Shown here: piece after piece, positions 12,044 to 39,700 of the stretch
Numbering within the stretch: the first letter of the stretch is position 1
How the letters are laid out: every line of letters begins with the position of its first letter
From: Bactericera cockerelli
Lineage: Eukaryota; Arthropoda; Insecta; Hemiptera; Triozidae
Reading direction: 5' to 3'
DNA: 64,000 bases
Assembly: GCA_024516035.1 (NCBI GenBank)
Contig: CM044957.1
Location: 20,402,676-20,466,675, forward strand
Made by a program: the position numbers and the translations under genes
Notes under the pieces: generated by a model
The model's database searches: none
Seen by the model: the letters and a program-made list of their open reading frames with translations, nothing else
What the model was told of the DNA's origin: nothing

Positions 12044-12286
12044 TAACGTCGCTTTCAACTGCCATGGTCATATAACGACGGGGGTTTTACCCTCCATTCG
12101 CAGGAAACTCATAGACCTGCTACTCACATTGACCTCACCCAGCCTGAGTGGGGCCGGGAAAAGCCAGCGTCACGAGAATTAGAATTTGAATGGTCACCCA
12201 TCCAAGTCTTCACCTCGCTGGATGTCGCTTAACTTCGGTGTTCTGAAGGGAACTGGTGTATTCAACATGCCATCGACGCTGGCTGA
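12044..12286 (-). mobile_element. 5S-rRNA-headed SINE (SINE3 type)
   Basis: On the minus strand the element opens with a 5S rRNA-like head: GCCAGCGTCGATGGCATGTT, GAATACACCAGTTC, CACCGAAGTTAAGCGACATC and CTTGGATGGGTGACCATTC follow the order of real 5S rRNA, including its internal promoter region. Then comes a body with CTCAGGCTGGGTGAGGTCAA and GCGAATGGAGGGTAAAACCC, and an A-rich end. 5S-derived SINEs form the SINE3 class. Confidence 0.85.
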
Positions 12287-15700: not shown

Positions 15701-18700
15701 CAGGTTAGTGCTTCGATCCTGTTTCAGATTAGTCGATTACGTACAATTATTTTACGTTTTGGTTTGGCATTTTTTTTGCACCTGAAAAAAAAGATGCACC
15801 TGAAAAAAAAGAGGGCGAGGTCATCTCGAAAAAAATATACTGGCCAAGATCTGACCACTAAAATAAAGATTCGAAGGTGCTTGTCAAAGAAAATGAAAAG
15901 TCCACCAGGTGCCACCCAGTGGACCGGATGAACAGATAAAATGAACAAATTTGGAATCAGTCCATCAAGATATTTCATTTGATATCACTTAACAATGTTT
16001 TTGGGGGGTCCCGAAAATAGGGTTCCCGTTGTCCTAGGAAGTCCAACAAAAAGTCAAATCAATTTCTTTTTTGACGAAGAACTTATTTCAATAAAAATTC
16101 CGATGTTTTAAATTCATGTTGAATTTTTTGCTGGCTGAAAGTACTGAAATGGGAAATATGTTTTCCGTTACCTCACACTCTGCCCCGTATAGGCGTTCTT
16201 CACACTTCGGCCGAGGTGTTTGATCACAGAAGATTGTTTAAAGTGGGGTTTAAACCATACACATTCTCCCCCCCTCCCCGCGCCTGTATATTAAATAACT
16301 GTGATGTGCTTTTAAAATCTAGGAACATTAAAACGCTAAAATTAACAAAAAATGTTTTATTTACCCGATATTCCTCTGGTGTGGCTACATAGTCAGCGTA
16401 GGTGTTGGCCAATCCTGCAATAATCACATCACTCTCCGCAAGAAGTCCCATTTCATCCTGAATAGTTCTTCTTAGTCGTCTCCCGGACATAGTGGTTAAT
16501 TCTCCCGGTACACCAACAAGCACCAGGTGTCCTAGACGCAGCAGATGAGTACTGACAGTGGTGGGTTGCCACTGGTGAGGGAAGTTCATCTAATCCGGAA
16601 ATGCGTAGACATTCAATTTGTATTTAGTACAGACAAAGAAGAAAACAATGTATTTCATTCTAGTGTACAGGGTGTTTCTGAAGTGAGTGCAAATATACTG
16701 GGTGATTGTGTTAACACATTGACTGCCGTGTCACACTGTCACACTATATGTATGACACAATGTTAAACCTATACGCCACGTCACACATATTGTGTGACAG
16801 TCGATGCTACTTTGAATGAGTATCACACTAGGATAAGGAAAGTAAAAATAGAAAGAAAAGAAGTGTCACACTTTTTTGGTGTGACGTGGCATACAGCGTT
16901 AAAAAACCACCTCTGTATGCCACGTCACACAATATGTGTGACTATGTATAGTAACGTGGCGTACGGGTAAAGTGTCCAAAAATGATCATGGTAGTCAACG
17001 TGTTAAGTAACGACAAAAAATATGGTTAATTCCACACATCAAGGCTCGTCAAAAAGTCAGTAACATATTAAACACTAAGCAAACACAGGTGCGTTAAGAT
17101 GACAGCCCACCAGAACGGATTTTGACCAAATAAGGCTCAACGTTTTGTGCTCGTTTTGTGCCAACAAAAGTTTATTTTGTACCCCTACCGTTCTCGAGAT
17201 ATAGACCCCCCCTAGGTGGGCTGCTAGCTTAACGTTAAGCTAGCAGCCCACCAGAACGGATTGAGTTGAGACTAGGTTTATTGGATTCGGCTCGTTTTGT
17301 GCCGTTTTGTGCCAAAAATATTTTTCTCCTGCGACCTTCCGTTCCCGAGATATTGACATTTGAAAAAGTCACTTTTTGGCGGGAAAATTTTTTTTCTTGG
17401 AATTTTCGGGATTTTTTTATACCATCGTTTTGTGCTCGTTTTGTGCTCCAACTTTTGTCATTAAAACTTTTTTTGTACCCCTACCGTTCTCGAGATATAG
17501 ACCCCCCCCAGGTGGGCTGCTAGCTTAACGTTAAGCTAGCAGCCCACCAGAACGGATTGAGTTGAGACTAGGTTTATTGGATTCGGCTCGTTTTGTGCCG
17601 TTTTGTGCCAAAAATATTTTTCTCCTGCGACCTTTCGTTCCCGAGATATTGACATTTGAAAAAGTCACTTTTTGGCGGGAAATTCTTTTTCTTGGAATTT
17701 TCGGGATTTTTTTATACCATCGTTTTGTGCTCGTTTTGTGCTCCAACTTTTGTCATCAAAACTTTTTTTGTACCCCTACCGTTCTCGAGATATAGACCCC
17801 CCCCAGGTGGGCTGCTAGCTTAACGTTAAGCTAGCAGCCCACCAGAACGGATTGAGTTGAGACTAGGTTTATTGGATTCGGCTCGTTTTGTGCCGTTTTG
17901 TGCCAAAAATATTTTTCTCCTGCGACCTTTCGTTCCCGAGATATTGACATTTGAAAAAGTCACTTTTTGGCGGGAAAATTTTTTTTCTTGGAATTTTCGG
18001 AACTTTTTTATACCATCGTTTTTTACTCGTTTTGTGCTCCAACTTTTGTCATCAAAACTTTTTTTGTACCCCTACCGTTCTCGAGATATAGACCCCCCCC
18101 AGGTGGGCTGCTATCTTAACGTTAAGTAAGGAGCCCACCAGAAAGGATTTAGTTAAGACTAGATTCATTCGATCGGGTCGTTTAGTGCCCTTTTGCGCCA
18201 AAAATATTTTCCTACTACGACCTTTCGTTCCCGTCACTTTATGGCGGGAATTGAGGTCACCGTGCGTGCAAGCTAGTGTATAAGCCACAGTGACTACTGT
18301 CAAGATTTTTTTTATCTGAGCTGGTTGTAGGATTTTTTATGGAAACTTTACATTTTACACAAAAATAGATCAATTTTAGATAGTCAGGAAGAAAGTTTTA
18401 TCCTGCTTACTGAGATTCGTAGAATTCTACGAATCGCAGTAAACAGGGCTTAGAATTTTTTATAAGCCATTAAAAATATCCAAAACTGGCCCGAGGAGTG
18501 ATTTCAACATGATATGAAGAAAAAATGTGAATAGCAGAGATAAATCACAAGCCAATATTAGCACTTTCGATTGTTTGGTTTCAATCGTGGGCGCCATCTT
18601 GCATCGGGAAAATGCTCAATACTAAAGTGACAATGTATTTGGAACCTAGAGGTCAATGAGCTATCAGAATCAATTCTAAACTTTTCTCTAGACGCCTATA

Positions 18701-21700
18701 ATCGAAGTTAGCTGAGTGGTCGTTCCCAGTAGCTCAGTGGTCAAGGCGTCTACTGGTATTTCGGAGGTCGCGGTTTCGAAACCCAGCCGGAACGTGACAA
18801 GTTACCCTCTCATTTGTGGATTTGACCACTTACTGCTGCAATAATGGAACTAATTAGTCTTATAAATAAGGCGATATTAAAATTATTCAGTTTTCCTCTT
18901 TAATCCAATTTTCACCCAGACTAATTCCTCATAATATTTCAAGACACGCATGAACCGCCGTTATCTTTTCTCTTCACTCTACATGGGGATTTGACACAAG
19001 GAAGAATTCTGGAGTACTGTCTTTTCCCACAAATACTGTTTTTTCCCACAAATGTCCCCCCCAAAAAAATATCCCCAAGGAAGTGTCAGAAAAAGTATCC
19101 CGCGTGATTTATGGTCTACCTACATAATTATAATTATAATATATACCTCTGATATAGATGTTCAGGCAGATTTGAGTTTGATTGCACCAATATGTAAAAG
19201 ATCAACCAGTGTGACATTCCAATCTGAATAAATACAATTAGGTATATTATATTAATTTAATTTCCATTTGCATATTTTGGGAGTAAATTGAAAATTATTC
19301 AAGTAGGTTACCAATTAATTCGGTTTTTCAGTTGTGCAAGATCATTGGTTGGATGGTAGATATTGCTTAAAGCAATTATCCCACACTTTGCAATAATCTA
19401 TGGAAATAAATTTGAATAGATTTTAATACAACAACAACAACAACAAAAAACACAATTGTCTTCAAGCAGAAATCAAAACTAGAGGGTATATTATAGTTTC
19501 ATGTTCATGATCCAATATTTATGATGTTCTTTTTATCCCCCAAAAAAACACTACGTGTACAAATAGTCGTCAAGTGTTGGAATGATTAAAAAGAACTGAT
19601 ATCAAAAACGTCAATTTTCTATGTTTGAAGGAATTATTTTTCACGTAATTAGTCTCTTGATAATTCAACCAAAATAATAGCCTCACAACAACAATACACC
19701 TTTGAGCAAACTTCGATTCGGTATTTTGAGAATTTAACTAAAAAAATAGCCACTCAACAAGCAATGCTCTTGTAAGAACAAAACAGTGTGCAGTCAAGGA
19801 CGTGGTTCTGTAACTATGCAACATTGTTCTTACAAGAGCATTGTTTTGTTGAGTGGCTATTTTTTTGGTTAAATTCTCAAAATACCGAATCGAAGTTTGC
19901 TCAAAGGTGTATTGTTGTTGTGAGGCTATTATTTTGGTTGAATTATCAAGAGACTAATTACGTGAAAAATAATTCCTTCAAACATAGAAAATTGACGTTT
20001 TTGATATCAGTTCTTTTTAATCATTCCAACACTTGACGACTATTTGTACACGTAGTGTTTTTTTGGGGGATATCACTACTTTTTGATTTAATTGATTTTC
20101 CTTTGATAGATGAAATAAAAACTAATCAACAATTAACAGATAAAAGAAAAAAGACTTTTAATTTAAGGATGTTGCGATACGCAGTAATATTATAAGACTA
20201 TCATATAAAATGTTGGGTAATTTATATTGGAGTACGAGTAGTGAGGTGACACTACCTTGTTTAATGAAAAAAGTTATAATGAGTTGCATGCTCGAAAATT
20301 ATATTGTGACCCAAGTACTGTTCTGTAAATAATTACAATTGCAAGGAGGAAAAAAAAACCTTGAAAAGATGCTGGAAGAATATTTCATAGTACTTGCTAA
20401 ATATTATCCATAGATAATATCGGAATAATTAAGTACCTCTCTCTGCTGGACCCAGTTCTAGAGATGGGTATTTGGGTAGTATTGTAATTTTAATACCGAG
20501 GATTTCATAGATCCGGTACCCGGTATGCTACCCGGCCCCGGTGTGTAATACCAAGTATTTAATAGATACTTCGATACGTCGGTACTCGGTTCCAGTGTGT
20601 AATTCCGAGTATTTCATAAAACCGGTACCCAGTACGGTACGCGGATCCAGTGTGTTATACCGTAGCCAGTGTTGTGCTCGGGTACCTAATTTTATTTTGT
20701 GCCCGGTACGGGTACTTTTGTAACAGTACCCGGTATTTTTTGGGTACTTTTCGGGTACGTTATCCTTATCTATAGTAATAAGATTTGTCTAAATTATTTT
20801 AACGATCAAACTAAATAAAATACCAAATTAATAGTTAGCCTTCAATGAGGTCTTGAACTCCAAGTTGCAGGTTAAAAGTGTAGTAAGCTAGATTTTAGTA
20901 TTATTTAAAATTACTATTAATTTATTATTGTTATCACAATCAGGAAATAAGAAAATACATTTATTAAAAATAAGGCTTACTCCTTTTTAATTTAAGTATG
21001 AATTTGTAAACAAAAAATAACTAGAATGTAGAAAAAATAGTATTCTACCATATATTCGTAAGTAAAACAAATTTGAAGAAAATCGGTTCTGTGGTTTTGG
21101 AGATACAAATGATTTAGTCGAAAAAATCAAAATTGCCACGTGTATACAATGTGAAACAATCACGAGGAAGTATTGTGTCCAAAATTGGCAGTGTTTTTTT
21201 TTTATTTATATTTATATATATGGTACATATTTCTAAATTTTGAATGAGATCTATGTAATTTACGATTCAAAATACAAAAGTATTGATCCAAATCAATGCT
21301 TTATTTGGACTGTCAGTGGCCAGCGTAATGGTTGTATCTACTGCCCGTAGTCCAGACATTTCGAGTTCGATTCCCGGTTGTTGCAGACTTTTCAAATATT
21401 TTTTTTCCCCTCTAAACACGTGAGTCTGGAATCACAGCCCTACCCAGGCTGGGTGAGGTAAATGTAGGTAGCTGGAACGATTCCCAGCGAATGGAGGGTA
21501 AAACCCCTCGTACTGACTAGTTCAAATCAGGACGTTAAAACCAAATACAATCAACTGGTCAAAAATGAACTCGTTAAAAAACGGACAACTCTGTTTCGTG
21601 GTTTTGTTTACAATACAATTTTATTTATATTATGTACCTATGTACATTGTACATGTACATGGTAGGTAGATGGAAATTCGATCTTGGTAAAATAAAGAGG

Positions 21701-24700
21701 GAAATGAAAGTACCGAGTATTATTGTATGTTCCAAAATTGCCTCTTACTATGGCTCTAAGAAATATTGACCCATATATTTGCCTAACTTCGAGTTACTAA
21801 ACATGGTGTCAATTCAGCATAATCAGTAGGTAAATATAAACAGAAGAAGTGAGAAATTATACTAGATATACATTGAATAATTATAAATTAATAAGCAAGC
21901 ATAGATATATCCATGGAATATACCCTGAAATTTTCAATTCGATTGGACAAAAAATGAAACTTATATCATGTTACATACGACTTATATCACGTTAGGTAGA
22001 TGGATAATTAGATTGTGACAAATCAATGTTGATCGAGTTAAACCATACTCACTTCGTTCGAAATTAAACGTTCATAGGAGGTTGACTCAAACTACCAACT
22101 ACTGTTTTTATTTCTCACGAGAAAACCGGACATCCAAAGTACAGACTAAAAAAAAATTCTACCTAGCCGGGATTCGAACCCAGGTCACCTTGCAAACTTT
22201 GTGTTTTACCTACACCAGTGGACGACCACAGAGACTGCTCAATACATAATATTTTATTATAATTTATCATTGTTTTGATCTACATTAATCAATATTTTTC
22301 CTCATACTGGCCAATATTTTGTACATTTCTCATATTATAGACCTAGTTTACCTCTTGATGTAGAAATCTCTGAATGAAGTTATGTAACGTTATTATTCCC
22401 ACACTGATTAAATGGTCTGCTGGCAGCTTGGATGAAGCAAAGACGATTGTTTCCCTCCCATATTTTAAGTTATATGTGAGGCGAAGATTTTTTGTTACTC
22501 TCATAAATCTAAATTCAGTTTTTTTCTTTTTATGTCTTCGCTGATTTTTCTAAAATTTTATTTACATCGTAGTATAATTCTGCGTAATTAGATCTTTAGA
22601 AAGAACCTTCAGTCATCAACTTGGGATAACTAGGCGTGGCTCCAGGGTTCATTATAGATATTACTTTAGAGGGCTTTAAAGACTTTTCTACTTGTTTCAA
22701 CCATCTGAAATTAAGTGATCTTATTCACTTTGACTAGACCTTTCTAAAAACACCAGAAATACATCTCTAGGATAACAATAGACGGCTCTGGGCTCCAAAA
22801 TAAGTATTCTTTTCAAAGGCTCTAACTCAAGTTTGGTACAGTGTAATACTTTGGTTATATTTTTATATTTTTTCCTATGATAAGGCCTTTCGAAAAATAC
22901 CAGAATCGCAGCTCCAAGATAACCAGGGGCGGCTCTGTGCAATTTTCCGGTTTTATTTTAGAAGGCTATATCTCCTATCCTATAAAAAATAAATACTTGA
23001 AACTATAAAAGGTATGCAGAAATAAAAATTCTCTATCCAAAAACGTAGCTCACGTCTTTCCACGACAAGCACACATTGCTGTACCCTTGACAGAAAATTG
23101 GTCTGAAGAAAAAAAAAACCTGTATGAATATTTTAATAAAATTCAAGATTTTCGGCGTGGCCAGAAAACGACTTTAACTGTACGTAGGAACCTCGCGCTT
23201 TCGTGAAACATAATCTATTTTCGCGTCTCATTACGAATTTGAAATAAAAATTGATAAAAGTTAGCGCGAAGTGGGCGAAAACAATAAAACAAAATACATA
23301 TAAACTCTGTTTCGTGTTAATATAGGCCGGTTGGCTGGCGCTACTTGACGAGCGCTCGCCTACCGGCGAGCTTGATGTAAGTGGGAAAACTTGGAAAATC
23401 CCGCGATATTACGGAATCATGGGATTTTCTTCACACAATCACAGCGAGAGAATTATTCCCTGTGTCAGAATCCCTCCACGTGTTTGTTTTTCACAATCCT
23501 TAGACATAATTTTACGTATATAAGACCATTAGGCCATCGTCGCTGACACGTTGAATAATAATAATAATAATATCGCCTTATTTATACTGCCCGATTAAGA
23601 CTACTAGAGTCCTATTATTCCAGCAGTAAGACCAAGACATAATTATTATTATGTAAGTGGTAAATTTCCCAAATAGGAGGATAACTTGTCATGTCCCGAT
23701 TGGATTTCGAACCCACGACCTCTGGATTCACAGAGTGCCGCCTTTACCACTGAGCTACCCGGACAGTAAAGTTGAATGCTCCGGTTCTAGTAAGATCACG
23801 AATTTGGGCAACGTCCAGCGGGGTGAAGAGTTTGAGATGCTAGTATTTTAGCCAAACGCAGGCTGGGTGGGGTATAATAATATTTCCGTGTCCGTAAATA
23901 GGCACAGATACCTATATAACGGTGGTGAAAGGATTAAATGAACGCCCAGATTTAATGTCTAGCCTCTTCCTTCCCAATGTGCATCTGAATGCACATTTTT
24001 TTGGTAATGCTATCATACCAAGACAAAATTGTCCCGCCTATAATAACGCACATAGTTCTCCTTCCTTTGAAAAAACCTCTGTGGTAAGTATCCGTTCACA
24101 TTAAAGATTAAAATCAACATGAGTTCAGAAAAGTGTTTGTGCATTTGAATGCACCTAGGGAAGATACCATTACAAACCCTATATTGCGAATGTGCATTTG
24201 GATGCACATCGGACAGGTACCACTACAAATGATAAAAGCGCTTGGGAAGGAGGAGGCTAGGCTTCTTTCATATTTATTATATCTATTTGGTTTTAACACT
24301 TTTAACGTCCTGATTTGAGATAGTCAGGACGGGGGTTTTACCCTCCATTTGCTGTGGGAATCGTGTGTGTGTTTGTATGTGGCTGTGTGGGTGTGTATAT
24401 GTGTGTGTGCGTTCTTAGGCTAAGAAGGATAAATTTTGTTAGCTGGTACGAATCTCAGTAAACAGGATAAAACTATCTTCCTGACTATATAAAATTAGGA
24501 CTTTAAAAGCAAATGGAATCAATTGTGTTGTTGTGTAAAATGTAAAGTTTCCATTGAAAATCCTACAACCAGGTCAGATAAAAAAATCTTCACAGTGGTC
24601 ATTGTGGCTGATACACTAGCTTACACGCACGGTGATCTTGATTCCCGCCATAAAGTGACTTTTTCAGATGTCAATATCTCGGGAACGAAAGGTCGCAGGA

Positions 24701-27700
24701 GAAAAATATTTTTGGCGCAAAACGGCACTAAACGAGCCGAATCGAATGAATCTAGTCTCAACTCAATCCGTTCTAGTGGGCTGCTAGCTTAACGTTAAGC
24801 TAGCAGCCCACCTGGGGGGGGTCTATATCTCGAGAACGGTAGGGGTACAAAAAAAGTTTTGATGACAAAAGTTGGAGCACAAAACGAGCACAAAACGATG
24901 GTATAAAAAAATCCCGAAAATTCCAAGAAAAAAAAATTTCCCGCCAAAAAGTGACTTTTTCAAATGTCAATATCTCGGGAACGAAAGGTCGCAGGAGAAA
25001 AATATTTTTGGCACAAAACGGCACAAAACGAGCCAAATCCAATAAACCTAGTCTCAACTCAATCCGTTGTAGTGGGCTGCTAGCTTAACGTTAAGCTAGC
25101 AGCCCACCTGGGGAGGGTCTGTATCTCGAGAACGGTAGGGGTACAAAAAAAGTTTTGATGACAAAAGTTGGAGCACAAAACGAGCACAAAACGATGGTAT
25201 AAAAAAATCCCGAAAATTCCAAGAAAAAAAAATTTCCCGCCAAAAAGTGACTTTTTCAAATGTCAATATCTCGGGAACGAAAAGTCGCAGGAGAAAAATA
25301 TTTTTGGCACAAAACGAGCCGAAGAGAATAAACCTAGTCTCAACTCAATCCGTTCTGGTGGGCTGCTAGCTTAACGTTAAGCTAGCAGCCCACCTGGGGA
25401 GGGTCTATATCTCGAGAACGGTAGGGGTACAAAAAAAGTTTTGATGACAAAAGTTGGAGCACAAAACGAGCAAAAAACGATGGTATAAAAAAATCCCGAA
25501 AATTCCAAGAAAAAAAATTTTCCCGCCAAAAAGTGACTTTTTCAAATGTCAATATCTCGGGAGCGAAAGGTCGCAGGAGAAAAATATTTTTGGCACAAAA
25601 CGGCACAAAACGAGCCAAATCCAATAAACCTAGTCTCAACTCAATCCGTTGTAGTGGGCTGCTAGCTTAACGTTAAGCTAGCAGCCCACCTGGGGAGGGT
25701 CTATATCTCGAGAACGGTAGGGGTACAAAAAAAGTTTTGATGACAAAAGTTGGAGCACAAAACGAGCACAAAACGATGGTATAAAAAAAATCCCGAAAAT
25801 TCCAAGAAAAAAAATTTTCCCGCCAAAAAGTGACTTTTTCAAATGTCAATATCTCGGGAACGAAAGGTCACAGGAGAAAAATATTTTTGGCACAAAACGG
25901 CACAAAACGAGCCGAATCCAATAAACCTAGTCTCAACTCAATCCGTTCTGGTGGGCTGCTAGCTTAACGTTAAGCTAGCAGCCCACCTGGGGGGGGTCTA
26001 TATCTCGAGAACGGTAGGGGTACAAAAAAAGTTTTGATGACAAAAGTTGGAGCACAAAACGAGCACAAAACGATGGTATAAAAAAATCCCGAAAATTCAA
26101 AAAAAAAAATTTCCCGCCAAAAAGTGACTTTTTCAAATGTCAATATCTCGGGAACGAAAGGTCGCAGGAGAAAAATATTTTTGGCACAAAACGGCACAAA
26201 ACGAGCCGAATCCAATAAACTTAGTCTCAACTCAATCCGTTCTGGTGGGCTGCTAGCTTAACGTTAAGCTAGCAGCCCACCTGGGGGGGGTCTATATCTC
26301 GAGAACGGTAGGGGTACAAAAAAAGTTTTGATGACAAAAGTTGGAGCACAAAACGAGCACAAAACGATGGTATAAAAAAAATCCCGAAAATTCCAAGAAA
26401 AAAAAATTTCCCGCCAAAAAGTGACTTTTTCAAATGTCAATATCTCGGGAACGAAAGGTCGCAGGAGAAAAATATTTTTGGCACAAAACGGCACAAAACG
26501 AGCCGAATCCAATAAACCTAGTCTCAACTCAATCCGTTCTGGTGGGCTGCTAGCTTAACGTTAAGCTAGCAGCCCACCTGGGGGGGGTCTATATCTCGAG
26601 AACGGTAGGGGTACAAAAAAAGTTTTAATGACAAAAGTTGGAGCACAAAACGAGCACAAAACGATGGTATAAAAAAATCCCGAAAATTCCAAGAAAAAAA
26701 ATTTTCCCGCCAAAAAGTGACTTTTTCAAATGTCAATATCTCGGGAACGGAAGGTCGCAGGAGAAAAATATTTTTGGCACAAAACGGCACAAAACGAGCC
26801 GAATCCAATAAACCTAGTCTCAACTCAATCCGTTCTGGTGGGCTGCTAGCTTAACGTTAAGCTAGCAGCCCACCTAGGGGGGGTCTATATCTCGAGAACG
26901 GTAGGGGTACAAAATAAACTTTTGTTGGCACAAAACGGCACAAAACGAGCACAAAACGTTGAGCCTTATTTGGTCAAAATCCGTTCTGGTGGGCTGTCAG
27001 CTTAACGCACCTAGCAAACACTATTGTTCAAACCCAAATGGCAAGCAAAAATTAAGGTCAATCAGATAAGAGTTAAATTTTTAGGTATGGGTAGGACCAA
27101 CACCTTTGGTCCTAGTTCTGTTAGGGTCCATTCCTATACCCATTTTTATAGAAAAAAGTGACCTTTATTTTAGCTCTAGTATACATGGACAAATAATGTT
27201 CGCTATGTTTTCAGGAACACCTTGTATAAAAAATCCATTTACATTCAGTCATTAATAATCAACAGAACTCCGAACCGGTTTAACTAAACGACTCCCAATT
27301 TAGCATAGATTTCTGCTTTTCTAGAGTCTCAGTTTGATACTATAGCACTTGACAGACACTCGATTGTGTTTCGTTAACTTACTTCTCCAGTATTAAGTAG
27401 TATAGGTTTAGGCTTATGACAGGCGACCTGGTCAGCTGAAGGTTTTGCTAGAATATTGGTCACCAAATTCCACAGTGGATTTTCATTACTTGTTGTGCCT
27501 TGCTTGAATGTGAAAGCTCCTGGCCCATCGGTAGTACCCGCTGCAAAACTGTGGCCCATTGCAGGCAAACATCCTCGTACCTAGAAGTTAAAACAATGAT
27601 CGTGACACTAAACAGGCTGTTTAGTTTTTTTTGAGGAGGGGAAAGCTCATACCGAAAAGCGTGAGACTCAGACATGGACCACGCGGTATCCATGGCTGTC

Positions 27701-30700
27701 TACCCTAACTAAAACCCGCGGCTCCTCATCAATACTAAAAAATACCGTTGTGGGACTGTTAAATATTACTTCAACAACGTTATGGTCCTATGTAACTAGT
27801 CCTCGGACAAACTGCTCCTATAGTGAAACATATTGAGTATAATAACTTGTCGTATAATTCTATATCCTTACTAGTTCAGAGTGTCTGTCTTCGTGTCAGC
27901 ACATTTCTTTAGTTTACATTGATTGGAGGTCACCTTCAAATGTCCCCTTTAAAGCTTTGAATGCGATGTGGTCTTAAACAGATTTTTCCTATCGTTAGTA
28001 GTTCTCGAGATATTTGAATGTCTCGTTTATACCTTAAATGGGCGTATACCTTAAATTGTGTGTGGTTTGTGTGTGTGTGTGTGATGGATTGGCGAAGCGG
28101 GTGCAGCCAGCTTTTTATAATTGATAATAAAAAAATGAACTTGACCCCCCACTGGCCCCAACAAAGGGGTAAGTTTTGGGCTCCCGGCCCAAACACTTAT
28201 GCTTACTTGAAAAGATGGTTTCATTATCCCGGTTTACCGTGTAAAATTTTAATCTTTCTTAGATAATAAATTCATAAGATTTTCTGGGTTTCCAGAAAAT
28301 CTTATGATTATACTAACCTGAGTTATATTACCAGTATTAGGATCTCTATATTCAGCAGTTTCATCCGGAACTTTCAAATATCTGTGTACGTAGTCTAGTG
28401 CCCCCGTAACCTCTTCTTGATGACTTTGAAACAGCTCCTAGGACACAAGAGAATCCAATTTGTATGAGTGAAAATCTTAAAGGCTAGATTAATAAATAAA
28501 TACGATTGATATGGTAATTAGAAACTTTTTTTTTCAATCGAAAAAAAAAGTTAAACTGATGACTGAATAGAAAAAGTTAACGAAAAATGATTAAAAATTT
28601 CCGTCTCTAGATATTTCAAGAGGCTCCTTTTTTTTTGGCGGACCCTGTATCGTAGAATATCATTTTTCCTACATTCTAGATTCTACAAAAAATTCTATAG
28701 CGGCAGTTCGCAGACCTCATTTTTGCTCTTTTTTGTCCGAAATTTTGGATTCAGATCAAAATCATATGTAATTAAAAAATAATACATATATGTATAAATG
28801 AGAAATATGGACGGACTTTGTATGTATTTTTATGTATAAATGAGAAATATGAGTGAAAATTGAGGGTACATACGAAGGCTTTGTTAAACATTCGCTCTGC
28901 TATGATTCGTGTACTCTCCATCATGTCTCTGCCCGGACCAGACGCTACGCATGCATCTCCTTGAGAAGGACAAGAGCTGGTGTCCTTATGACAGTCCAAC
29001 CCGGTCTTGAGGCACTTAGGACCTTTGATATTAGGAGATACGTCACCTAGATTGGACGAGGCAAACGCTGCTACAAATTTTCCCTGCGAATAGAAAGTAC
29101 CTAACTATCAGAATATACTTCCGATTTCTAATATTAGATTTTTTTAAAATTAGGAATTTACTTAGGAGACCGACAGACACAAAACCAAAGTTACTCAGGA
29201 AGTTGTGAAAGGTCCAGAAAAAAATTAAATCAGAGCAAAAAAATCATTTTTTTAAACAAATTTTTCCAATATTAGAATTTTTTATATTAATTTTTTATAT
29301 TTTATCGAAAGTAATAAATATCCTCTATTTCAATGGATACCTTTTTTCACTGTCCTAATTGGCGAGATATGCTAGTATTTGAAAAATCTCATTTAATAGC
29401 TCAACTTTTTGAAAATGAACGTTTTACCATGCAAAATTTTAGCTCAATCTGACTTGCGTTTCCAGAGTTATAGCGTTTTAAACATACACACTTACACACA
29501 CACAAACGAATCATTTTATAAATCTTATAAAATGTAATTGGTTTACATGTCACCTTGCCAATAAGTTCATCTGGATTATATTTCTGCTCCATCAAAATAG
29601 ATGCTAGTCCGACATTATCACTGGATATGAGACGGTTTGTATTATTCATAGAAGTGGGATGGACTGCAAACCAGTTGATCATGCCCATGGGTTCATTGAT
29701 ATCAGATATAAACTGAAGCTGGACCATAGTCTTGTCTACGTCGTATTCGTATCTGTAAGGACAATTTTTTTTGATATTATTTTTCTAGGAAGCTCCTCAA
29801 ATTTTAAAATGAGAACCTAAAGTTTTAAAACTGTGGAAAAATTTACAGAATTTTCAACTGAAATTAGTTCAATTTTATTTCATTTTGTTTCTAATGTTGA
29901 CTTATAGTTAACCAATTAAAAAAAAAAATAAAAAAAAAAATGAATAATCCAGCCTCTTCGCAAGATTATACCAAATATCCTCATCGTCTTGGTCTTTATA
30001 AAACAACAAGGTTTAGCTATGTGGATATATCCACATAAGATCTGCACATCGTGATCTACAACAGACGAATACCTATTAAAATTGAAAATGCTCTGATTGA
30101 TGAACAAAGTATTGAGATTTGTCAGAATAATCCCTCAATTTTTACAAGACCTGTTCATACGTGGACTTGGGGCACCCCTAGTAAATACCGCTGGTGGTGA
30201 TGAAGACAATGTTTGGCATGTTCGATGGCGTCGTGGTACTCTATTACATGGGAGACAGTACATCCTACCACAAGGTGCTGTGGGAAGTCAATTTGTAGAT
30301 CTCCTAACCAAGGAAGTTCAAGATATGTCTCAAACGGAAACTCTCCCTCTGAACGTATTTTCTTCATGTGTGTCACAATTTTACAAAAGGAAAAAATAAT
30401 TACATCTGGTACTGACATAAGGTGCCTCCTAAAAAAACGTATGGATATGTAGAATGAAACCCAATTTGACGAACTACTTCAAGAAGCCACTCGTTGTGAT
30501 AGACAAACGAAAACATCACTTCAGATATTTACAGATGAACACAAAGTGCGGATTTTTACGCGCCTAGTTTTACAAGGAAAACTTCGAGACTTAACGAGAT
30601 GGATAAATGATTATTCTGGTGAGGGCGTTTTGTTACCTGATTCTTTGATGCTAGATGGAAGATTGGAAACAAAACATCCTGAACAAAGATGTCCCAATGA

Positions 30701-33700
30701 GGAAATGTTCATGAAATGTGATACTCTTCCAGTCATGGTAGATGTTGATGTTACTGCTGGTCATGTTGAGAAGGTGACAAGATCCATGAGAGGAGGTGCT
30801 GGTCCAAGCTGCACAGATGCTGACCAATGGAGTGTGATGCTGAGATAGTCAACATCTGCGGAAAGCTGTTGCGTCATTGATACGAAAATTAGCAAACGGA
30901 ATCGTTGAATGGAATTCTCAGTTCGTGCTTTGCTTGCGAGACGTGGATTAGCATTGGATGAATGTCCAGGTGTAAAGCCAATTGGCAATGGAGAAGTATG
31001 ACAGCGAATCTGTGCTAAAACCATGGCCCACATCACAGGAGAAGATGTCAGAAAAGAATGTGATGCGGATCAGCTCTGTGCTGGCACCAAAGCTGGTATT
31101 GAAGGTGGAATACACACAATGTCTGACTTGTTTGATGAAGACGATGATACATCCATTCTCCTAGTTGATGCATCAATGCCTTCAATGCATCAAAGTTCTA
31201 TAAATAGACCTTTGACACTTTGGAATATACCAAATCTTCCAACACTATGTGATGGATGTGGCACAGACTTCATCATCACCCATGCACTCAACTGGAAGAA
31301 AGGTGGTCTTATAAAACACGGACACGATCAACACAGGGACTTTTGTGCTGCAACGGTAAATTTAGCCTTCAATAGTGTTGAAATAGAACCTCTGATGCGA
31401 GAGCGGACAAATAATGTTCCAGCACTTTATGCAGACTTCAAGGCAGTTGGTGTTTGGGAGGCAAGGAGAGTAGCGACAACCGCATTGTAAATGCCGACGC
31501 TCCCTCTTATGCTTCTCAAAGCTGGAATACAACAGCCAGTCATCATGCAGCAGAAAAACAGGAAATATGATGCTGCAGCAGAAGAGGCTAGAGGTTCATT
31601 CACACCACTAGTCTGTACCATAGAAGGTGTGCTCCACAAAGAATATGACACATATGTGAGGAGATTGTCATTCAACCTTTCAACAAAGTGGAACAAACCC
31701 TATTCCCAATTACCTACTATCTCAATTACACAAGGACAAATGTCAATAATAAGAGCAGTTGGGTTGAGATAAGAGGAGCAAGGAGGCTCATAAGAAGCTT
31801 ACCCTACAAAGATGGAGCGGGGATGCCTTATTTTTATATACAGGTAATTACTATTTTATGATGAATGAGTGTGTTTATATTAATAAAAAAAGTGAAGTGG
31901 ATGATCACAGTGCATCACAGCAAAAAAAACTTTGGTTTTACCAACAACACCAAAGTTAGGCTAACTTACTATTCTACCCACAAGGATTGAACTGAAGATT
32001 ACTTCAAGAAAGTTATGGTTTACGAGTCTAAAATCAACCCATATTCGACTGATGAACACCTTTAAAGCTGGAAGAGGGAAGGAGAATATCTAAAATCACA
32101 GAATTTCGGAAACATACTATATACAGGGTTTCCCATTACAAACGAGTCATTCAAATATCTTGAAAACTACTGACGATAAAAATATTCTGCGCAAGGATTG
32201 AAAAGATGGCCAACTTTTTCAGAAACATACTGTATATGTAAATGTATGTAGGTACATATCTCACCGCATGCGTTCATCCTCAGGATTCTGCAGATAGGCA
32301 GTTGGACTTCTGTTTATATTGGCATCCAGTAGTTCTCCTTTACTCACATATAGCCTCCCATTTTGTAAGTTTTCATGCGCGCGGTATATACTCTGGAACA
32401 AGACAAGAAACATCATGGTGTGATGAAACAATATACAGGGTCCGCCAAAAGAAAAAGGACCCAATCGAAATATCTAGAGCACGGATTAAAATTTTAAAAA
32501 ATGCTATAACACCTGTACCATAATGTCGAGGGGGAAACCTTTTCTACCAGGTTTTGATTTTTTATCATTACCAGGGGCAGCCCCAGGGGGGGAGGGGGGT
32601 CAACTTTGGAATCTTAAATGGAACCACTCTATTTGTAATACATTTCTGAAAAGTAGTTGACATTAGAAGTATTTTCAGACAAGTTTGAGATTTTTAATCA
32701 AAACAGAGGGCCGGAGATATCGTGTATATTTCATTTCACAGGTTTCAGTCATTTTTTTTTTATTCAGGTATAATAAGTACATTTATTGTAAAAATTGTTA
32801 AACACTGTCTTGTCTTTCTATTTGAAATTACTAAATTTTCATCCCTTTTTGATACGATTAGCTTTACCAGGGGAGGTGTCAAGGGGTCAACTTTTTTTAA
32901 ATAATGTAAAAACCATTCTTTTTCGAGTATAATTTGTTCTAAGTAAAATAATACAATGATCCATGTTGTTCAATTTAAAATAAGATCAGGGCCGGATTTA
33001 CTTCAAATTAATGTGAAAAATTCTAAAACCCACATGCAGTCTTATACTCCTGCCCTGTTTTCAAATTAATAATATACAATAGAAAAAAGAAAATGAAACA
33101 GAAAAAATGTATAAATATGTATACATGTCCTAACTAAAGAGCGGGGTTATTTGCCTTTGGCAATCTCTTCCACCCAATCCTTTAACTTGTGGTGGAACTG
33201 ACCGCATAAAATCCTTTGTGAAACCCTGACATATTTACTCTATGTATCGTTCTTCTTTAACTATCTTCACACTGTATGTTTTTGAAATGTTTTGAAAATA
33301 ATATACGGAAGTTTTGCAACTTCTCTCTCGACTCTGATCTTGTCAGAACTTTCCCAGCTAACCAAGAGCTTTTCTTTTTAGCTTTCCCTTTAAATTCCAC
33401 AGTGAATTAGTTTTCTATCTTGGGAGCTCGCGGCTCAAGTAATCGCCACTTGACGCCACATCCCAAATTGGTGACCCCGACGTGATTGGTGCCAAATTGA
33501 TTGGTGACCATTCGCCGTTTTATCCGAACCTACCTTCGTTACCGGTAGTCGACCGCGCCGCGTGTTCGTTTTTCCGTTTCGTTCTCTTTCTCTGCCCACC
33601 GGGGTAGACCGTGCCGTTACCGTGTTTTCGTGGTCTCTAAACCCACGCCGTGTCCGTTTTTCGTGTCTTTCATTACTCCTCTATTTCACCATGAGTGATG

Positions 33701-36700
33701 GAGAAGAGGAAACCAAGAACAAAGGATCCACAGGGAAGGATCTAACCTCAACTTCAGGAAATTTAGGCGCCACGCCTAATGTTCCCATTATCACCATGCC
33801 TCATGTAAGCATCCCTCGCTTTTACAAGCCAGACCCAGCCATGTATTTTATCAATGTGGAATCCCAATTCACTCTGGCTGGCATTGTATCTGATCATGAT
33901 AGATATGTACAGCTTACTGCTAAACTTGAACCCGAAATCTTGGCAGAAGTCAGTGATGTGGTTCGTAACCCAAATACAAGGACATATTCTGCTCTCAAGA
34001 AAGCCATCCTCATGCGCTTTGGCCAATCAGAAGAACAAAGATTGAACAGGCTTCTAGGCACAATGGAAATGGGTGACAAGACTCCCAGCCGAATCCTGAG
34101 AGAAATTCAGCGCCTTGCTGACACAGGGATACCTGAATCCATTGTACGTGGTATTTGGTTAAAAAAACTGCCTACCTACACCCAACAAATATTACATGCA
34201 GTGAGTTTGACCACGCCCCTGGCACAACAGGCAGAAGTGGCAGACAAAGTTATGGCAGTTAGTCATCCTACCTCCACCATATCCACAGTTTCTAACCATG
34301 ACACATCTCTTATTGAGACTCGGTTAGATGAGCTGTCTAAGAAAGTTCAGGAGCTTTCATCATCACTGGAAACATTGCTAAGGAGATCCACATCTGAACA
34401 TTCATCCCGCAGCCACTCAAGGTCCCGCACCCGTTCACCTGCAGTTCAGCACAGGTACTGCTATATACATCACAAATACAAATCAGAAGCTCGTCATTGT
34501 GCTGCCCCTGCTACCTGCAAGTTTGAGGCAGACAAGAAGTCGGAAAACTACTAACCCTCCCTGACAGATTAGCGGCTGTAGGGAAGGGTAACGAAACCTC
34601 CCGCTTGCAAGTAACTGATCACAACACAGGATTGCGTTTCCTAATAGACACAGGAGCTTGCATCAGCCTCTTACCTCCCAGCCCTGCTGACCGTAACAAT
34701 GTACAGTCCTTTGAACTGTTTGCAGCTAATGACTCCCGTATCAAAACATATGGTGAGCGTCTCCTTGTTCTCAACCTGAACCTCAGAAGGAACTTTCCCT
34801 TCATTTTCACCATTGCTGATGTGTCCAGTCCTATTCTAGGTGCTGACTTTCTGCTAAAATATGGTCTCAATGTTGATCTAAAGAACTCATGTTTGATTGA
34901 CCCTCTCACAAACCAGAAGTCTTGTGGTGTATCAATCTCATCAATCCAGTGCAGTATTACTGCTGTACAACCTGGCTTACATGAATCAGTTGAGAAGCTC
35001 ATATTAAAACACAATATTGCTTCCAAGACACTGATCAACTCTCTACCTGGAATCAAAAATTCTGTTGTGTCTCATCACATTGAAACAAAAGGACAACCTT
35101 GTTTTGCTCGAGCTCGCCGTCTTCCTCCTGAGAAATTGAAAGCTGCCAAAGCTGAATTTCAGTTCATGATTCAACAAGGTATTTGTAGACCCTCCAAGAG
35201 TCCTTGGGCCAGCCCATTGCACATGGTGCCCAAAAAGTCAGGAGATTGGAGACCCTGTGGGGATTACAGAAATCTCAATGCCCAGACAGTTGCTGACCGG
35301 TATCCCATACCCAACATTCAAGATTGTGCAACAAGCTTGCATGGTTCTCGCATCTTCTCTACTATTGACATGAAGAAAGCTTTTCTTCAAATACCAGTGC
35401 ATGAAGATGACATTCCCAAAACTGCTGTTGTGACACCTTTTGGACTTTTTGAGTTCATGCGCATGCCTTTTGGCCTATGCGGTGCATCTCAGACTCTTCA
35501 GCGCTTCCTGCATTCAATTACCGCTGACCTTCCCTTTGTCTTTGTCTACATAGATGACTTCCTCATCTCCTCAAGAACTCAGGATGAACATATTGCTCAT
35601 CTTGATCAACTGTTTGCTCGACTAGCTGAGTATGGACTCACAATCAATGTCAGTAAGAGTGTATTCTTACAGGAATCTGTGCATTTCCTGGGCTACAGCA
35701 TCTCTGCTGATGGTATCTCACCTTCTCAAGACAAAGTTTCAGCCATCTTGTCATATCCCAAGCCGGAGACCGTAGGAGAAATGAAGAGGTTTTTGGGTAT
35801 GATAAACTTCTACCACCGCTTTCACAACCACATGGCTGACACTCAAGCACCACTCCATGTCAGTGGTAACCCTCCACCCAAGACCAAGCTCACTTGGACA
35901 CCCACAATGGAGGAAGCATTTGATAAGTGCAAACAGAAGCTTGCCACTCAGGTCACGCTTGCATTCCCTGATCCAGACATGGAAATCAGTATCATGACTG
36001 ATGCTTCCAGTACAGCTATTGGAGGATCCATTCACCAATGTCTCGATGGTAAGGCTCAACCTTTGGCTTTCTTTTCCCGGAAACTGAACACTGCTGAACA
36101 AAAATACTCTACTTATGACCGAGAGCTTCTAGCCATATACGCCACCATACAGAGGTTTTCATATCTTCTAGATGGCAGGAAATTTGCCATTTTCACTGAC
36201 CACCGACCTCTCACATATGCCTTCACCAAAGTGAAAGACAATGGTTCTCCTCGACAGGTACGTCACTTGTCTTACATTAGCCAATTCTCCACAGACATCA
36301 GATTTGTGAAAGGCAAGGACAATGCTCCAGCTGATTTTCTATCCAGGATAGAAATTATCAAGAAAGCTGTAACTGCTACTGAAATGTTACAAGCTCAAAA
36401 CTCTGATCCTGAGCTCAAGGAACTACTGGACAAAGAAGCACACAGCCTCTACCTTTGTCAAATGACTGTTGACAATGTCAAACTGTACTGTGACACTTCA
36501 ACTGGCAGAACACGTCCATATGTCCCCAAGGATCTACGTTATGCGCTCTTCAAGCAGCTGCATAACATGTCTCACCCTGGTGGTCGTGCTACATGCCGTC
36601 TCATCTCAGACAAGTTTGTGTGGCCATCAATGAACAAGTGTATCAAATCATGGGTACGCCAGTGCCATGAGTGCCAGATCTCAAAAGTCAACCGACATGA

Positions 36701-39700
36701 AAAGAGCCCTCTTGTGCAGTACTTAGTTCCAGATGAGAGGTTCTCTCATGTGCATATTGACATTGTCGGGCCACTGCCACCTTCACAAGGTAATATTTAT
36801 TTACTAACTTGCATTGACAGATACACTCGCTGGTTGGAAGCACTCCCAATCTCAGATCAAACTGCAGAAACTGTTGCAAAAGCGTTTTTCAACGGTTGGA
36901 TTGTGCGCTTTGGTTCTCCTGTATACTTAGTGACAGACCAAGGAAGAAATTTCACTTCTCACCTTTTCAAAGAAGTATCTTCACTATTGGGTATAGAGCT
37001 CAAACACACCACAGCCTACCACCCTCAATGCAATGGTCTTATTGAGAGAGCTCATCGCACACTCAAAGCTGCTCTGATGTGCCGTCTTCAAGCTTCCACA
37101 ACTTCTTGGTCCTTGGAACTACCCGTAGTTCTACTTGGACTACGCACAGCCTTCAAGGAAGACCTTGGTGCCAGCCCTGCCAACTTGGTATATGGAACCA
37201 GCCTCCGCCTCCCTGGTGAGTTCTTTGAGCCTCCTCACTCAGAAATGAGCACAAGTGATTATGTGCAAAAACTTCACACAGTGTTTGCTTCTATCCGCCC
37301 CAAGCAAACTTCTTGGCATGTGAATGAGAAGACATACACCAATCCCAGCATTGAAAAGTGTACCCATGTATACTTGCGCGTGGATGGAGTAAAGTCAAGT
37401 TTACAACGTCCCTACACAGGCCCCCACCTAGTCATTGCTAGAACTAGTAAGACCTTCACTATCAAGATTGGAAACCGCCTTGCTGTTGTGTCACGTGACA
37501 GGGTGAAGCCAGCTTTCACCTCAGACCAAGTACTGGTACCTCCTCCAGATCCACCTCCATCAAGCGACTCACTGGTACAACGCTTTGTTGTCCAAAACTC
37601 TGTTCCAGTACCAGCTCAGACACCATCAGTACCTACCACACCGGTGACTGAAGTGCCTATCTCTCCTCAACGCAACCTGGTTGTTCCCTCCACATCTCAT
37701 GATTTTCCCACTCAGATGCCTGTCACTCCACAGCATGTTGTTCCTAGGCCCACTGGTAAGAATGTTTCATTCAGACCCCGTACCAACTTTGATTCTTCCA
37801 AGAGATGTCCCGCCCAGGCCAGGAAGAACTTGGCACATTCACAGAAATCTCAGCATAGACCTCTGTCTACCGCTAGGTCCATCAGTTTACCTAGGATTCC
37901 ACTTGCCAGTCCTGAGACACTGTCTCAGAACAGTAATCATACCTCTACTTCCACTGCCACATTGGCCAATTCGAACTTGAACCCTGCAGCTAAGCCTTTT
38001 TCCCCTGGTTCAAGTCCCAGGTCAAGCGCATCTTGTCCAAGTAGTCCCATAGTTACTAGGTCAGGTCGCCAGGTTCGACCCCCGGCACACCTAGATAATT
38101 ATGTATTGTAATCAATTATCAACAGCTATAATTTGTAAATAACAGTTGTATTATCTTTGTACAGTCATTTTCCAACATGAAAATTATTAAGAATTTTTTT
38201 TTATTGTTTTGGTCTAAATTCAGCTTCCTAAACAATTTAAATTGATCTCAAGTAGGTATACCATCCTATTTGAAAACTCTCTCAAACTCTTGTAGAAAAT
38301 ATTAATTCTACTTTGTTCACTTACAAAATTTGGTTCAATTACATTTTTAGTAAAAAATGCATATTGCCTCACTGTATTCACCTTTGAATACCTTCTTAGT
38401 ACTTATTTTAAGACAATTATCTGATTACCTAAGAATTTCTCTTTTATATGGTTAAAATCTCATATTATCATATATCTGTTAAAATTCTATATCTCATGTA
38501 TCTAGTATCTACCCCTGGATACAATATTAACAATCAAATTTGGTTTTTACCACATTTTTACCACTGTGTAAAATAATTTCTTTAAGCACCTACATTATTT
38601 TTCATTTCTCCTGCTGCATAATATTGTTAAAACTACATATTTCCTCAGCAAGATTTATCTCAGTATTCTCATAATACTAAATTGACAAGGAACTTAAATC
38701 AATTTTATCATTCTGATCATGTATAGCATTATTTTAATTGTACCCATCATGTTCACTTAACCTTAGTCCTTACTTGTAGCAAATTCAAATTTGAGTTTCA
38801 AACCCTCATACTTTGGTTTTCCTAGCTTTTTTGCTTTTCTTCACCAAGAATAATCTTATTATTCCTATCATGGAAACTTGTAAATCTTAAATACCTATGT
38901 AACATTGCAAATAAGAAAATTTGTTAGCATAATCTCTGTATACTACTCAGATATATTTTTGTCAAAAAAAAATAATCAGGTATTGGTACAATATTTCAGC
39001 ATTAATCATATCTATATATTTTGTGTCATTTTCTAGATAAAACCTTTATCTTTCATGTATAATTTGTTCATATCATGTTCTCTCCACAGTTTCCACCACA
39101 GGGAATCAAACCCTTGTCTTCCCTGCCTCATTTTTTTTCTCGAAGGGGGGGAATGATGTGGTGGAACTGACCGCATAAAATCCTTTGTGAAACCCTGACA
39201 TATTTACTCTATGTATCGTTCTTCTTTAACTATCTTCACACTGTATGTTTTTGAAATGTTTTGAAAATAATATACGGAAGTTTTGCAACTTCTCTCTCGA
39301 CTCTGATCTTGTCAGAACTTTCCCAGCTAACCAAGAGCTTTTCTTTTTAGCTTTCCCTTTAAATTCCACAGTGAATTAGTTTTCTATCTTGGGAGCTCGC
39401 GGCTCAAGTAATCGCCACTTGACGCCACATCCCAAAAACTCAACTCGCATTTATCTCGCAAGTTGAAAATCTTTTCGAACAAATCATTTTTTTTTAAAGC
39501 TGAATCCATATCTTATATTATAAAACTAGCGACCTGCGTCCGCTTCGCGAAGCCATCACACACACACCCCAACAAACACCCACACACACACAGACACATG
39601 CACACAAACTCACTCACACACAAATACACATGCACACACACACACCCACACGTATTGTATGTTCTCTCAATTTTTACTCACCAGTGCAATGCCCTTTGCC

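Follow-up and report, generated by a model that had tools for sequence, protein, structure and literature searches.

The window, a 64,000-nucleotide stretch of the Bactericera cockerelli genome, holds an element of 9926 bp with inverted ends (positions 17087-27012), which raises the question of what kind of element this is, how much of it moved, and what its long repetitive arms do. The first-pass annotation had described it as a complete foldback transposon in intron 8 of a ceramidase gene. Both inverted ends (AGGTGCGTTAAG...) and the perfect 9-bp duplication around them are correct to the base, and the arms are, as claimed, arrays of ~296-bp units that run in opposite orientations on the two sides (Table 1). 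The gene location stands insofar as the element lies between exons of one neutral-ceramidase gene.

Table 1. Features of the foldback element and its flanks, in window positions.
Feature	Position	Strand	Remarks
Left 9-bp target site duplication AGCAAACAC	17078-17086	+	perfect
Left terminal segment, 147 bp	17087-17233	+	end motif AGGTGCGTTAAG.TGACAGCCCACCAGAACGG, 10-bp repeats CGTTTTGTGC, reverse half of first palindrome
Left arm, three whole ~296-bp units (295-296 bp)	17234-17529, 17530-17824, 17825-18120	+	
Left arm, partial innermost unit	18121-18233	+	preceded by decayed GT/GA-type palindrome
Canonical core, left part	18234-19536	+	outer portion is inner inverted domain matching right side
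Nested insertion, about 3.84 kb	19537-23371	+	outside the family; empty site CTTTTTATGTAAG in nine sister copies
Canonical core, right part	23372-24639	+	
Right arm, partial innermost unit	24640-24793	-	
Right arm, seven whole units of 286-297 bp	24794-26855	-	
Right terminal segment, 157 bp	26856-27012	-	end motif AGGTGCGTTAAGCTGACAGCCCACC on minus strand
Right 9-bp target site duplication AGCAAACAC	27013-27021	+	
Example joint palindrome GGTGGGCTGCTAGCTTAAC/GTTAAGCTAGCAGCCCACC	17215-17252	.	single-strand DNA fold of 17180-17290, z -7.7
Other joint centers	17529.5, 17824.5, 18120.5, 24793.5, 25089.5, 25375.5, 25671.5, 25968.5, 26262.5, 26559.5, 26855.5		

The element contains 12 joint centers (CTTAACGTTAAG), of which eight are perfect 38-nt palindromes, three are palindromes of 36 nt, and one has decayed to 12 nt. 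The 20-mer that forms half of the palindrome has 26 sites in the window (at most 3 mismatches), all of them within the element, against an expectation of 0 from shuffled sequences. The 10-bp repeat CGTTTTGTGC occurs 42 times on the two strands of the element and 0 times in the remaining window. Over its outer 1147 bp, the left arm aligns to the right end with 96.4% identity, and the outermost right unit (26560-26855) is identical to its left counterpart. The two terminal segments are one substitution and one 10-bp repeat apart; at most other ends in the genome this segment measures 156-158 bp, compared with 147 bp at the left end of the window copy.

The proposal that the whole 9.9-kb block moved as one transposition unit is not supported, because 3.84 kb of it constitute a nested insertion that is missing from nine sister copies, which are all those readable across its site. 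The window copy without this insertion comprises about 6.1 kb, and its combined core parts are 97.5-99.1% identical across the nine sister copies. By eye, the nested insertion displays a Helitron-like 3' hairpin; no target duplication was seen around it.

The host genome (565 Mb) was searched for family ends at up to 3 mismatches, with the reversed pattern as a control. Other copies with the same ends, on which the first-pass reading depended, do exist: the search revealed 306 ends, compared with 0 for the control, and the unit has at least 407 matches elsewhere in the genome. Perfect 9-bp duplications, which the first-pass annotation had proposed to look for at each insertion site, flank 30 of the 34 complete copies examined and are missing in the other four. 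Their composition (n = 30) shows G or C at position 1 in 22 and at position 9 in 18, with an A/T-rich middle. These ends and duplications therefore identify a real, recently active and apparently non-autonomous foldback family, probably of the Mutator type, that combines long inverted tandem-repeat arms of variable length with mobility accompanied by target duplication. The reading of the tandem units as a satellite-like array or an assembly artefact, for which three copies (C414, C709 and C422) might speak because they lie on short contigs and have no matching duplications, has next to no probability: it is ruled out by the perfect duplications at different sites, while the nested insert is missing from the nine sister copies and even short copies carry perfect duplications.

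The shortest copy measures 106 bp and the longest, which holds retrotransposon insertions, 13.7 kb; the number of joints per arm is 1 to 10 (16 copies). Perfect duplications flank short copies of 106, 114, 216, 551 and 610 bp, and one of 282 bp has a duplication that matches at 6 of 9 bases; each is a single insertion, and deletion after insertion may be an alternative origin of these short forms. The 25 C-type ends of exactly 157 bp differ on average by 0.77 bases, a low divergence that is consistent with recent activity and to which homogenization could also contribute. A search with the joined flanks of the window insertion gave no paralogous empty site. Such a site does exist for copy C6b, at positions 46106-46268 of the window; it is diverged (78%), and an indel of 7 bp lies nearby.

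Stop-to-stop frames of at least 130 aa are absent from 9 of 16 copies, including the window copy. The longer frames in the other seven are repeat-derived or retrotransposon-like by eye, save three in C6b and C1a (134-180 aa) that could not be assigned. The large copies C945, C1a, C13 and C176 were rejected as coding members, since their long frames are retrotransposon-like by eye and are therefore taken as insertions. The first-pass suggestion of a new family apparently holds, as a 20-mer taken from the unit gave no exact hit in viral_contigs or genome_contigs (viral and prokaryotic contigs) and no comparable family was found in the literature searched.

The terminal segment aligns to the two halves of the unit with scores of 64 and 134, where the maxima of 500 shuffles are 28 and 30. 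The unit is not a plain dimer: the half-to-half score of 39 is barely above the null maximum of 36, and both halves resemble the terminal segment, from which, on this sequence evidence, the 296-bp units are derived. The joints consist of two end motifs placed head to head, each without its last 6 bp. The observed anatomy suggests that the arms arose by tandem duplication of the terminal segment, although the order of events is conjectural; such a duplication would account for the fact that each 296-bp unit opens with the end motif and closes with an inverted one. An improbable alternative is that a miniature element gave rise to end-joined excision circles, that rolling-circle amplification multiplied these, and that the terminus took up the product; each joint would then be a circle junction with a loss of 6 bp per end. 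Such an origin would explain why joints correspond to two head-to-head termini minus 12 bp, and is consistent with six joints elsewhere that have a terminal-type motif on both halves (at most one mismatch each, by coordinates), two of them 141 bp apart, and with the single-strand fold of the window joint, which runs past 38 bp into CCGTTCT/AGAACGG. Intact circle junctions, however, would keep AGGTGC on both sides within 30 bp, for which the assembly has 0 exact instances, and no circles are needed to explain the arrays, for which tandem duplication of the terminus plus unequal exchange suffices.

Three end types occur in the genome, and the units follow them. After 9 ends without a joint were left out of the 73 collected, the unit-start dinucleotide is the copy's own end dinucleotide in 62 of the 64 ends whose first joint can be read (GC 36/36, CC 16/16, GT 10/11, mutated GA 0/1), with two exceptions, although these counts are not independent because the copies are related. 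In the CC and GT types, no such agreement with the end is seen for the joint's reverse half. The covarying bases directly adjoin TGA in ends or TAG in units. TGA is found in 99/99 ends of the fetched DNA, a count in which overlapping loci appear twice and for which GT and CC loci were chosen by TGA-containing patterns. No exact end with the unit-type TAG exists genome-wide, and eight places match with one mismatch. A strict separation of the two motifs is weakened by joints elsewhere that have the terminal TGA in place of TAG (12 exact and 22 with one mismatch), so the difference between ends and units is not universal.

In three subfamilies the unit-start motifs have shifted in step with the true end, and for this reason they most likely represent extra binding sites for the transposase. 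The covariation could alternatively be homogenization only, in which gene conversion or unequal exchange carries end changes from the terminal segment into an arm whose units have no binding function, a serious possibility although we consider it unlikely. It would account for the likeness of units across elements, for core-nearest joints that differ in type from the outer ones, and for the resemblance between the arms of one element; exchange among copies has also been inferred for Galileo, according to the available part of PMC3573991. Against it, every conversion tract would need to end within a single base, given that the covarying bases abut TGA or TAG and that exact TAG ends are missing; the TGA-bearing joints soften this argument.

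Of 32 C-type arms, 23 have an innermost joint of the GT type, compared with 3 of the 105 other joints in such arms. Divergence between C1 and C2 copies amounts to 1.0% at the end and 1.5% in the first unit, against 7.5-9.5% in four core segments, with a C2 set that is itself heterogeneous in its core (0.6-8.0%). The values between C1 and CC copies are 4.3% at the end, 3.5% in the first unit and 2.3-4.8% in the core, the last from two CC copies only. The first units of the two arms differ by 3.07 substitutions within and 4.13 between elements (14 C-type copies, permutation p 0.00005); this test omits C945, which has an insert in its left unit and with which the values are 2.87 and 3.82. Since innermost joints frequently retain a different type and the divergence of arms does not parallel that of cores, turnover of the arms appears to proceed from the tip, and different element lineages appear to share them; the discordance suggests a module that is traded between elements. 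On the strength of the same two observations, recombination or gap repair presumably renews tip-proximal units and swaps arms between elements whose cores differ.

The relation to Mutator elements that had been proposed is probable: the duplication length and the subterminal repeats fit, but no transposase was found between family ends. Target duplications of MULEs are 8-10 bp according to the accessible part of PMC5225508, a range that includes the 9 bp of this family, and long terminal inverted repeats (TIRs) with short subterminal tandem repeats, as found here, are common but not obligatory. The genome has 39 MULE (PF10551) matches, and no family end is present in the DNA read beside six of them (downstream 0.35-1.1 kb at three and 0.33 kb at one; one downstream only and one upstream only). 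The nearest MULE match, at C1:1928994, is 11.5 kb from a family end among the 163 of 306 end positions listed, and was rejected as a partner with no family end in 2.55 kb downstream. The Phantom-type candidate C1:6038921, in which FLYWCH and MULE matches share one 466-aa frame (by coordinates), was also rejected, with no family end in 1.9 kb upstream. Duplications of the P superfamily, including Galileo, are 7-8 bp long (8 bp in the P element), those of hAT elements are 8 bp, and Helitrons produce none; the 9-bp duplications of this family agree with none of these.

A Merlin/IS1595-type transposase in place of a MULE appears decidedly improbable. The 9-bp duplication falls within the 8-9 bp given for Merlin in the available part of PMC8101967, and two of three PF12762 (IS1595/Merlin) matches sit 5.4 and 7.2 kb outside a family copy, but Merlin ends begin with 5'-GG according to the same part, whereas the family ends begin with 5'-AGG at a boundary fixed by the duplications. 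Moreover, the neighboring copy has its own perfect duplication, and the IS1595 matches therefore lie outside that copy.

Foldback elements of this kind are already known (Tetris, Tm1 and Muta1), and the family and its variant of the structure are apparently new. Drosophila FB elements share foldback arms of tandem repeats and 9-bp duplications with it; their units are short compared with 296 bp here, and the likeness is one of structure. The available part of PMC4079207 describes Tetris, a foldback element of Drosophila virilis, as non-autonomous, with no conserved open frames and no transposase found, and with long TIRs, an inner domain, ~220-bp tandem repeats in variable number, 8-10-bp duplications and a MITE-like relative (DAIBAM), all as in the present family; a further likeness is a 37-bp stretch (~80%) that the Tetris repeats have in common with their outer domain. 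By that description, the 296-bp units, the palindromic joints made of end motifs and the three end types that covary with units are unlike Tetris, for which 3 structurally complete copies are given, compared with >300 ends here. Tm1, a Mutator/Foldback element of Meloidogyne, resembles the family in its variable-number composite TIRs, 9-bp duplications and MITE-like members, but has ~14-bp repeats and asymmetric termini (A1/A2), whereas the ends here are symmetric and very uniform; it also has a known member with a Phantom-type MULE transposase and is described as inactive and senescent (PMC3169594, in part). Muta1, a MULE of Aedes aegypti and a type-2 foldback, shares the terminal motif with short subterminal tandem repeats (12 bp, compared with the 10-bp CGTTTTGTGC), 8-9-bp duplications and hundreds of non-autonomous derivatives. 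By contrast, its TIRs measure 145 bp, it has a transposase of 504 aa and is mobile in yeast, and the accessible sections of PMC5225508 describe no long unit arrays for it. Galileo, of the P superfamily, has long TIRs and, in some groups, ~210-bp tandem repeats; the portions of PMC3688188 and PMC3573991 consulted report EMSA support for extra transposase binding sites in the repeats, and chimeric copies whose TIRs and interior come from different subfamilies. Unlike the present family with its 9 bp, Galileo has 7-bp duplications (PMC3573991, in part) and a P-type transposase.

The best explanation overall, to which we assign a probability of roughly 70%, is an apparently non-autonomous foldback element, probably mobilized by a MULE, with arms derived from the terminus, unit starts that most likely act as extra sites, and presumed renewal of tips and exchange of arms. 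A transposase made elsewhere, probably of the Mutator type, would cut at AGGTGCGTTAA and move the element by cut and paste, with a 9-bp staggered cut in the target that is consistent with the dispersed copies and their duplications. Since perfect duplications also flank the short copies of 106-610 bp, the core is probably dispensable in cis, and some 53 bp from either end may be all that is needed.

A more speculative reading, which we regard as rather unlikely, is that the arms are a running record of coevolution between transposase and ends, in which unit starts are read as auxiliary ends and the array is a genuine cis-acting module, made of fused termini, whose evolution is independent of the element that it mobilizes. 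If this is true, the arms would have had to take up each shift in end specificity, starting at the tip, and outer arms would be passed between elements with diverged cores. Why unrelated transposons repeatedly gain long, internally repetitive arms is an open question. In this family, the end and unit motifs changed together, and in many arms a probable order of these changes can still be traced. Three subfamilies, >300 ends and a broad span of copy sizes in one genome make the role of the arm units testable by comparison.

The foldback family to which the window copy belongs is real. The inverted-ended block in the window is flanked on either side by AGCAAACAC, so that the inverted ends and the perfect 9-bp duplication proposed in the first-pass annotation stand. 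By chance alone, nine bases would agree at two fixed places with a probability of about 4 to the minus 9, and the agreement recurs across copies. The arms consist of inverted tandem units of ~296 bp; the left arm has three whole units and the right arm seven, each with additional pieces. The element sits in a neutral/alkaline ceramidase gene, which is encoded on the minus strand, between exons recognized by PF04734 matches. An LTR retrotransposon, probably a young insertion, likewise lies between ceramidase exons.

Features of the window bearing on the foldback copy and its surroundings
Feature	Position	Strand	Basis or remark
5S rRNA match	12162-12283	minus	full model, 59.8 bits against a cut-off of 38; gene, pseudogene or 5S-derived SINE
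Ceramidase exon match, PF04734 positions 411-490	16227-16589	minus	PF04734 match
Foldback element, window copy	17087-27012		AGCAAACAC on either flank
tRNA-like stretches flanking the core, inverted	18716-18880 and 23560-23770		box A/B-like by eye; ~77-78% alike
Inverted repeat, one end of nested insertion	19534-20072		227 bp, reported 100% complementary; 85-bp loop
Nested insertion in core	19537-23371		Helitron-like by eye
Ceramidase exon match, PF04734 positions 238-309	28775-29104	minus	PF04734 match
LTR retrotransposon	33188-39436		two 280-bp repeats reported 100% identical; long open frames of 348 and 1194 aa that by eye resemble Gag/Pol
Ceramidase exon matches	39670-39990 and 41294-41623		overlap or border the shorter Helitron-like copy
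Second, shorter copy of the nested insertion	near 39940-42256		
Paralogous empty site for copy C6b	46106-46268		78% alike to C6b's repeat; 7-bp indel close by

The host genome (G000, 565 Mb), in which the window occupies C3:20402676-20466675, is probably that of a hemipteran: the NELF-D gene of the window has a best match of 92%, and among named proteins it comes nearest to Graphocephala (84%), followed by cockroach, leafhopper and planthopper proteins (82%). This genome contains at least 407 unit matches. Allowing up to three mismatches, 153 forward and 153 reverse ends were found and none with a reversed-pattern control, which bears out the expectation of other copies with the same ends; exact matching of a single end type yielded 40 + 37. 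We compared 34 complete copies, comprising 16 C-type copies (the set that includes the window copy), another five, four short copies and nine found by both ends. This sample is non-random: copies entered it through the best unit matches or through listed ends that could be paired. A perfect 9-bp duplication flanks 30 of the 34; the exceptions are C414 and C422 (3/9 bases each), C709 (5/9) and the 282-bp L051 (6/9). Within the duplications, G or C occupies position 1 in 22/30 and position 9 in 18/30, and the middle is A/T-rich. A fifth short locus, L061, was excluded, since its sequence and flanks are the reverse complement of those of L060. These two loci (G000:C4:8336825 and 8346735) present one 114-bp copy and its 9-bp duplication twice, inverted and 10 kb apart, probably as an inverted segmental duplication.

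The proposal that the whole 9.9 kb moved as one unit is not supported, since the core is interrupted by a nested insertion and nine sister copies are continuous across the exact empty site. Copy C3b is also continuous there. The insert looks Helitron-like, because no target duplication is visible and a GC-rich hairpin lies near one end. Between the window core and the nine copies, identity is 97.5–99.1%. The tRNA-like stretches at the core flanks may be SINEs or may belong to an inner inverted domain.

Perfect duplications flank copies of 106, 114, 216, 551 and 610 bp, which suggests that the core is dispensable and that ~53 bp per end may do; these are single insertions, possibly shortened after insertion. 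Stop-to-stop frames of at least 130 aa are absent from 9 of 16 copies. Those in C709, C8, C2 and C4b derive from repeat units, and those in C945 and C1a look like retrotransposon genes; frames assigned to neither class are found in C6b (180 and 134 aa) and C1a (136 aa). In five more cores (of the copies on C13, C11, C8, C10 and C176), frames of at least 140 aa are retrotransposon-like, repeat-derived or lacking, except for one unassigned 170-aa frame in C176, which was read in part.

The terminal segment measures 157 bp at most C-type ends; the left one of the window copy has 147 bp. The segment starts with AGGTGCGTTAAG.TGACAGCCCACCAGAACGG, contains CGTTTTGTGC two or three times, and is closed by the inverted end motif GGTGGGCTGCTAGCTTAAC. 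Alignment to the two unit halves scores 64 and 134, where the maxima of 500 shuffles are 28 and 30. Because the segment closes with the inverted motif and both unit halves resemble it, the palindromic joints between units are two end motifs placed head to head, minus the outer AGGTGC on each side. As single-stranded DNA, the joint gives a hairpin (z −7.7) reaching into CCGTTCT/AGAACGG.

Three end types are distinguished by the dinucleotide (GC, GT or CC) that follows GTTAA and precedes TGACAG. Among 73 ends collected, the first joint was readable in 64, and the unit-start dinucleotide equals that of the end in 62 (GC 36/36, CC 16/16, GT 10/11 and, for the window copy's mutated left end, GA 0/1). 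The reverse half departs from the end type, reading GTTACTC in 14/16 of the CC type and GTTAAGA in 10/11 of the GT type. In the bases right next to the covarying ones, ends differ from units. TGA occurs at 99/99 ends in fetched DNA, a count in which overlaps enter twice and GT and CC loci were chosen by TGA-holding patterns, and the internal starts picked out with a fixed pattern number 283 and read TAG (272) or AAG (11), both arms being counted on both strands and reverse halves thus included. Genome-wide, exact ends with TAG number zero, with one-mismatch matches at eight places. TGA-bearing joints occur elsewhere in the genome (12 exact and 22 with one mismatch), which speaks against a strict rule of TGA ends and TAG units. 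By their coordinates, six of the TGA joints form palindromes whose two halves both carry the terminal motif (at most one mismatch each), and one pair among them is separated by 141 bp. These six may represent an older stage whose joint was made of true termini.

The C-type joint nearest the core is of the GT type in 23/32 arms, against 3/105 other joints (Fisher p 7.5e-16, descriptive only since the copies are related), and GT would be the older joint state. The two arms of the window copy have identical outermost units, which share two private variants; one substitution and two gap columns separate the second pair, and seven or eight substitutions the third. Across 14 C-type copies, first units are closer within an element (3.07 substitutions) than between elements (4.13; permutation p 0.00005; 2.87 versus 3.82 with C945 included). 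Among the C-type copies, one core lineage is tight (C1, 0.3–0.6% between copies), and five copies have diverged cores (C2, 0.6–8.0% among themselves). Counting substitutions only, C1 and C2 differ by 1.0% at the end, 1.5% in the first unit and 7.5–9.5% in four core segments, and blastn identity of their aligned core parts is 81.8–84.5%. The order reverses in comparisons with CC-type copies, where the end differs by 4.3%, the first unit by 3.5% and the core by 2.3–4.8% (two CC copies for the core). From these sequence comparisons we infer that arms and cores have different histories.

The putative transposase partner is favoured to be a MULE, given the 9-bp length of the duplication and the 10-bp subterminal repeats; such repeats are common in Aedes MULEs according to passages of the Muta1 paper (PMC5225508). 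Matches listed in the host genome number 39 MULE, 54 FLYWCH and 3 IS1595/Merlin. No family ends occur beside six MULE matches in the DNA read, which covered 1.8–2.8 kb upstream and only 0.35–1.1 kb downstream of the open frame for L056, L058 and L059, downstream only for L057 and L089, and upstream only for L090. Among the 163 of the 306 end positions that were listed, none is nearer than 11.5 kb to a MULE match; for IS1595 matches the shortest distance is 5.4 kb. At G000:C2:38782706-38784744, two of the genome's only three IS1595/Merlin-type matches are found at distances of 5.4 and 7.2 kb from one family copy. This proximity may be due to chance; the IS1595 match lies outside the adjoining copy, because that copy has its own perfect duplication.

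Extra binding sites within repeats and chimeric TIR/interior copies are already recorded for Galileo in the sections consulted of PMC3688188 and PMC3573991. Terminus-derived palindromic joints and end/unit covariation are not described in the retrieved portions of the open-licence literature on such elements, which included work on Tetris, Tm1 (PMC3169594), Galileo (also in D. mojavensis), Muta1 and Merlin (PMC8101967) and an arthropod MULE survey (PMC13359780). The closest known system in form is Tetris, as presented in excerpts of PMC4079207. The family, apparently new, is a variant within the known foldback kind, and its proposed link to Mutator and FB elements is plausible.
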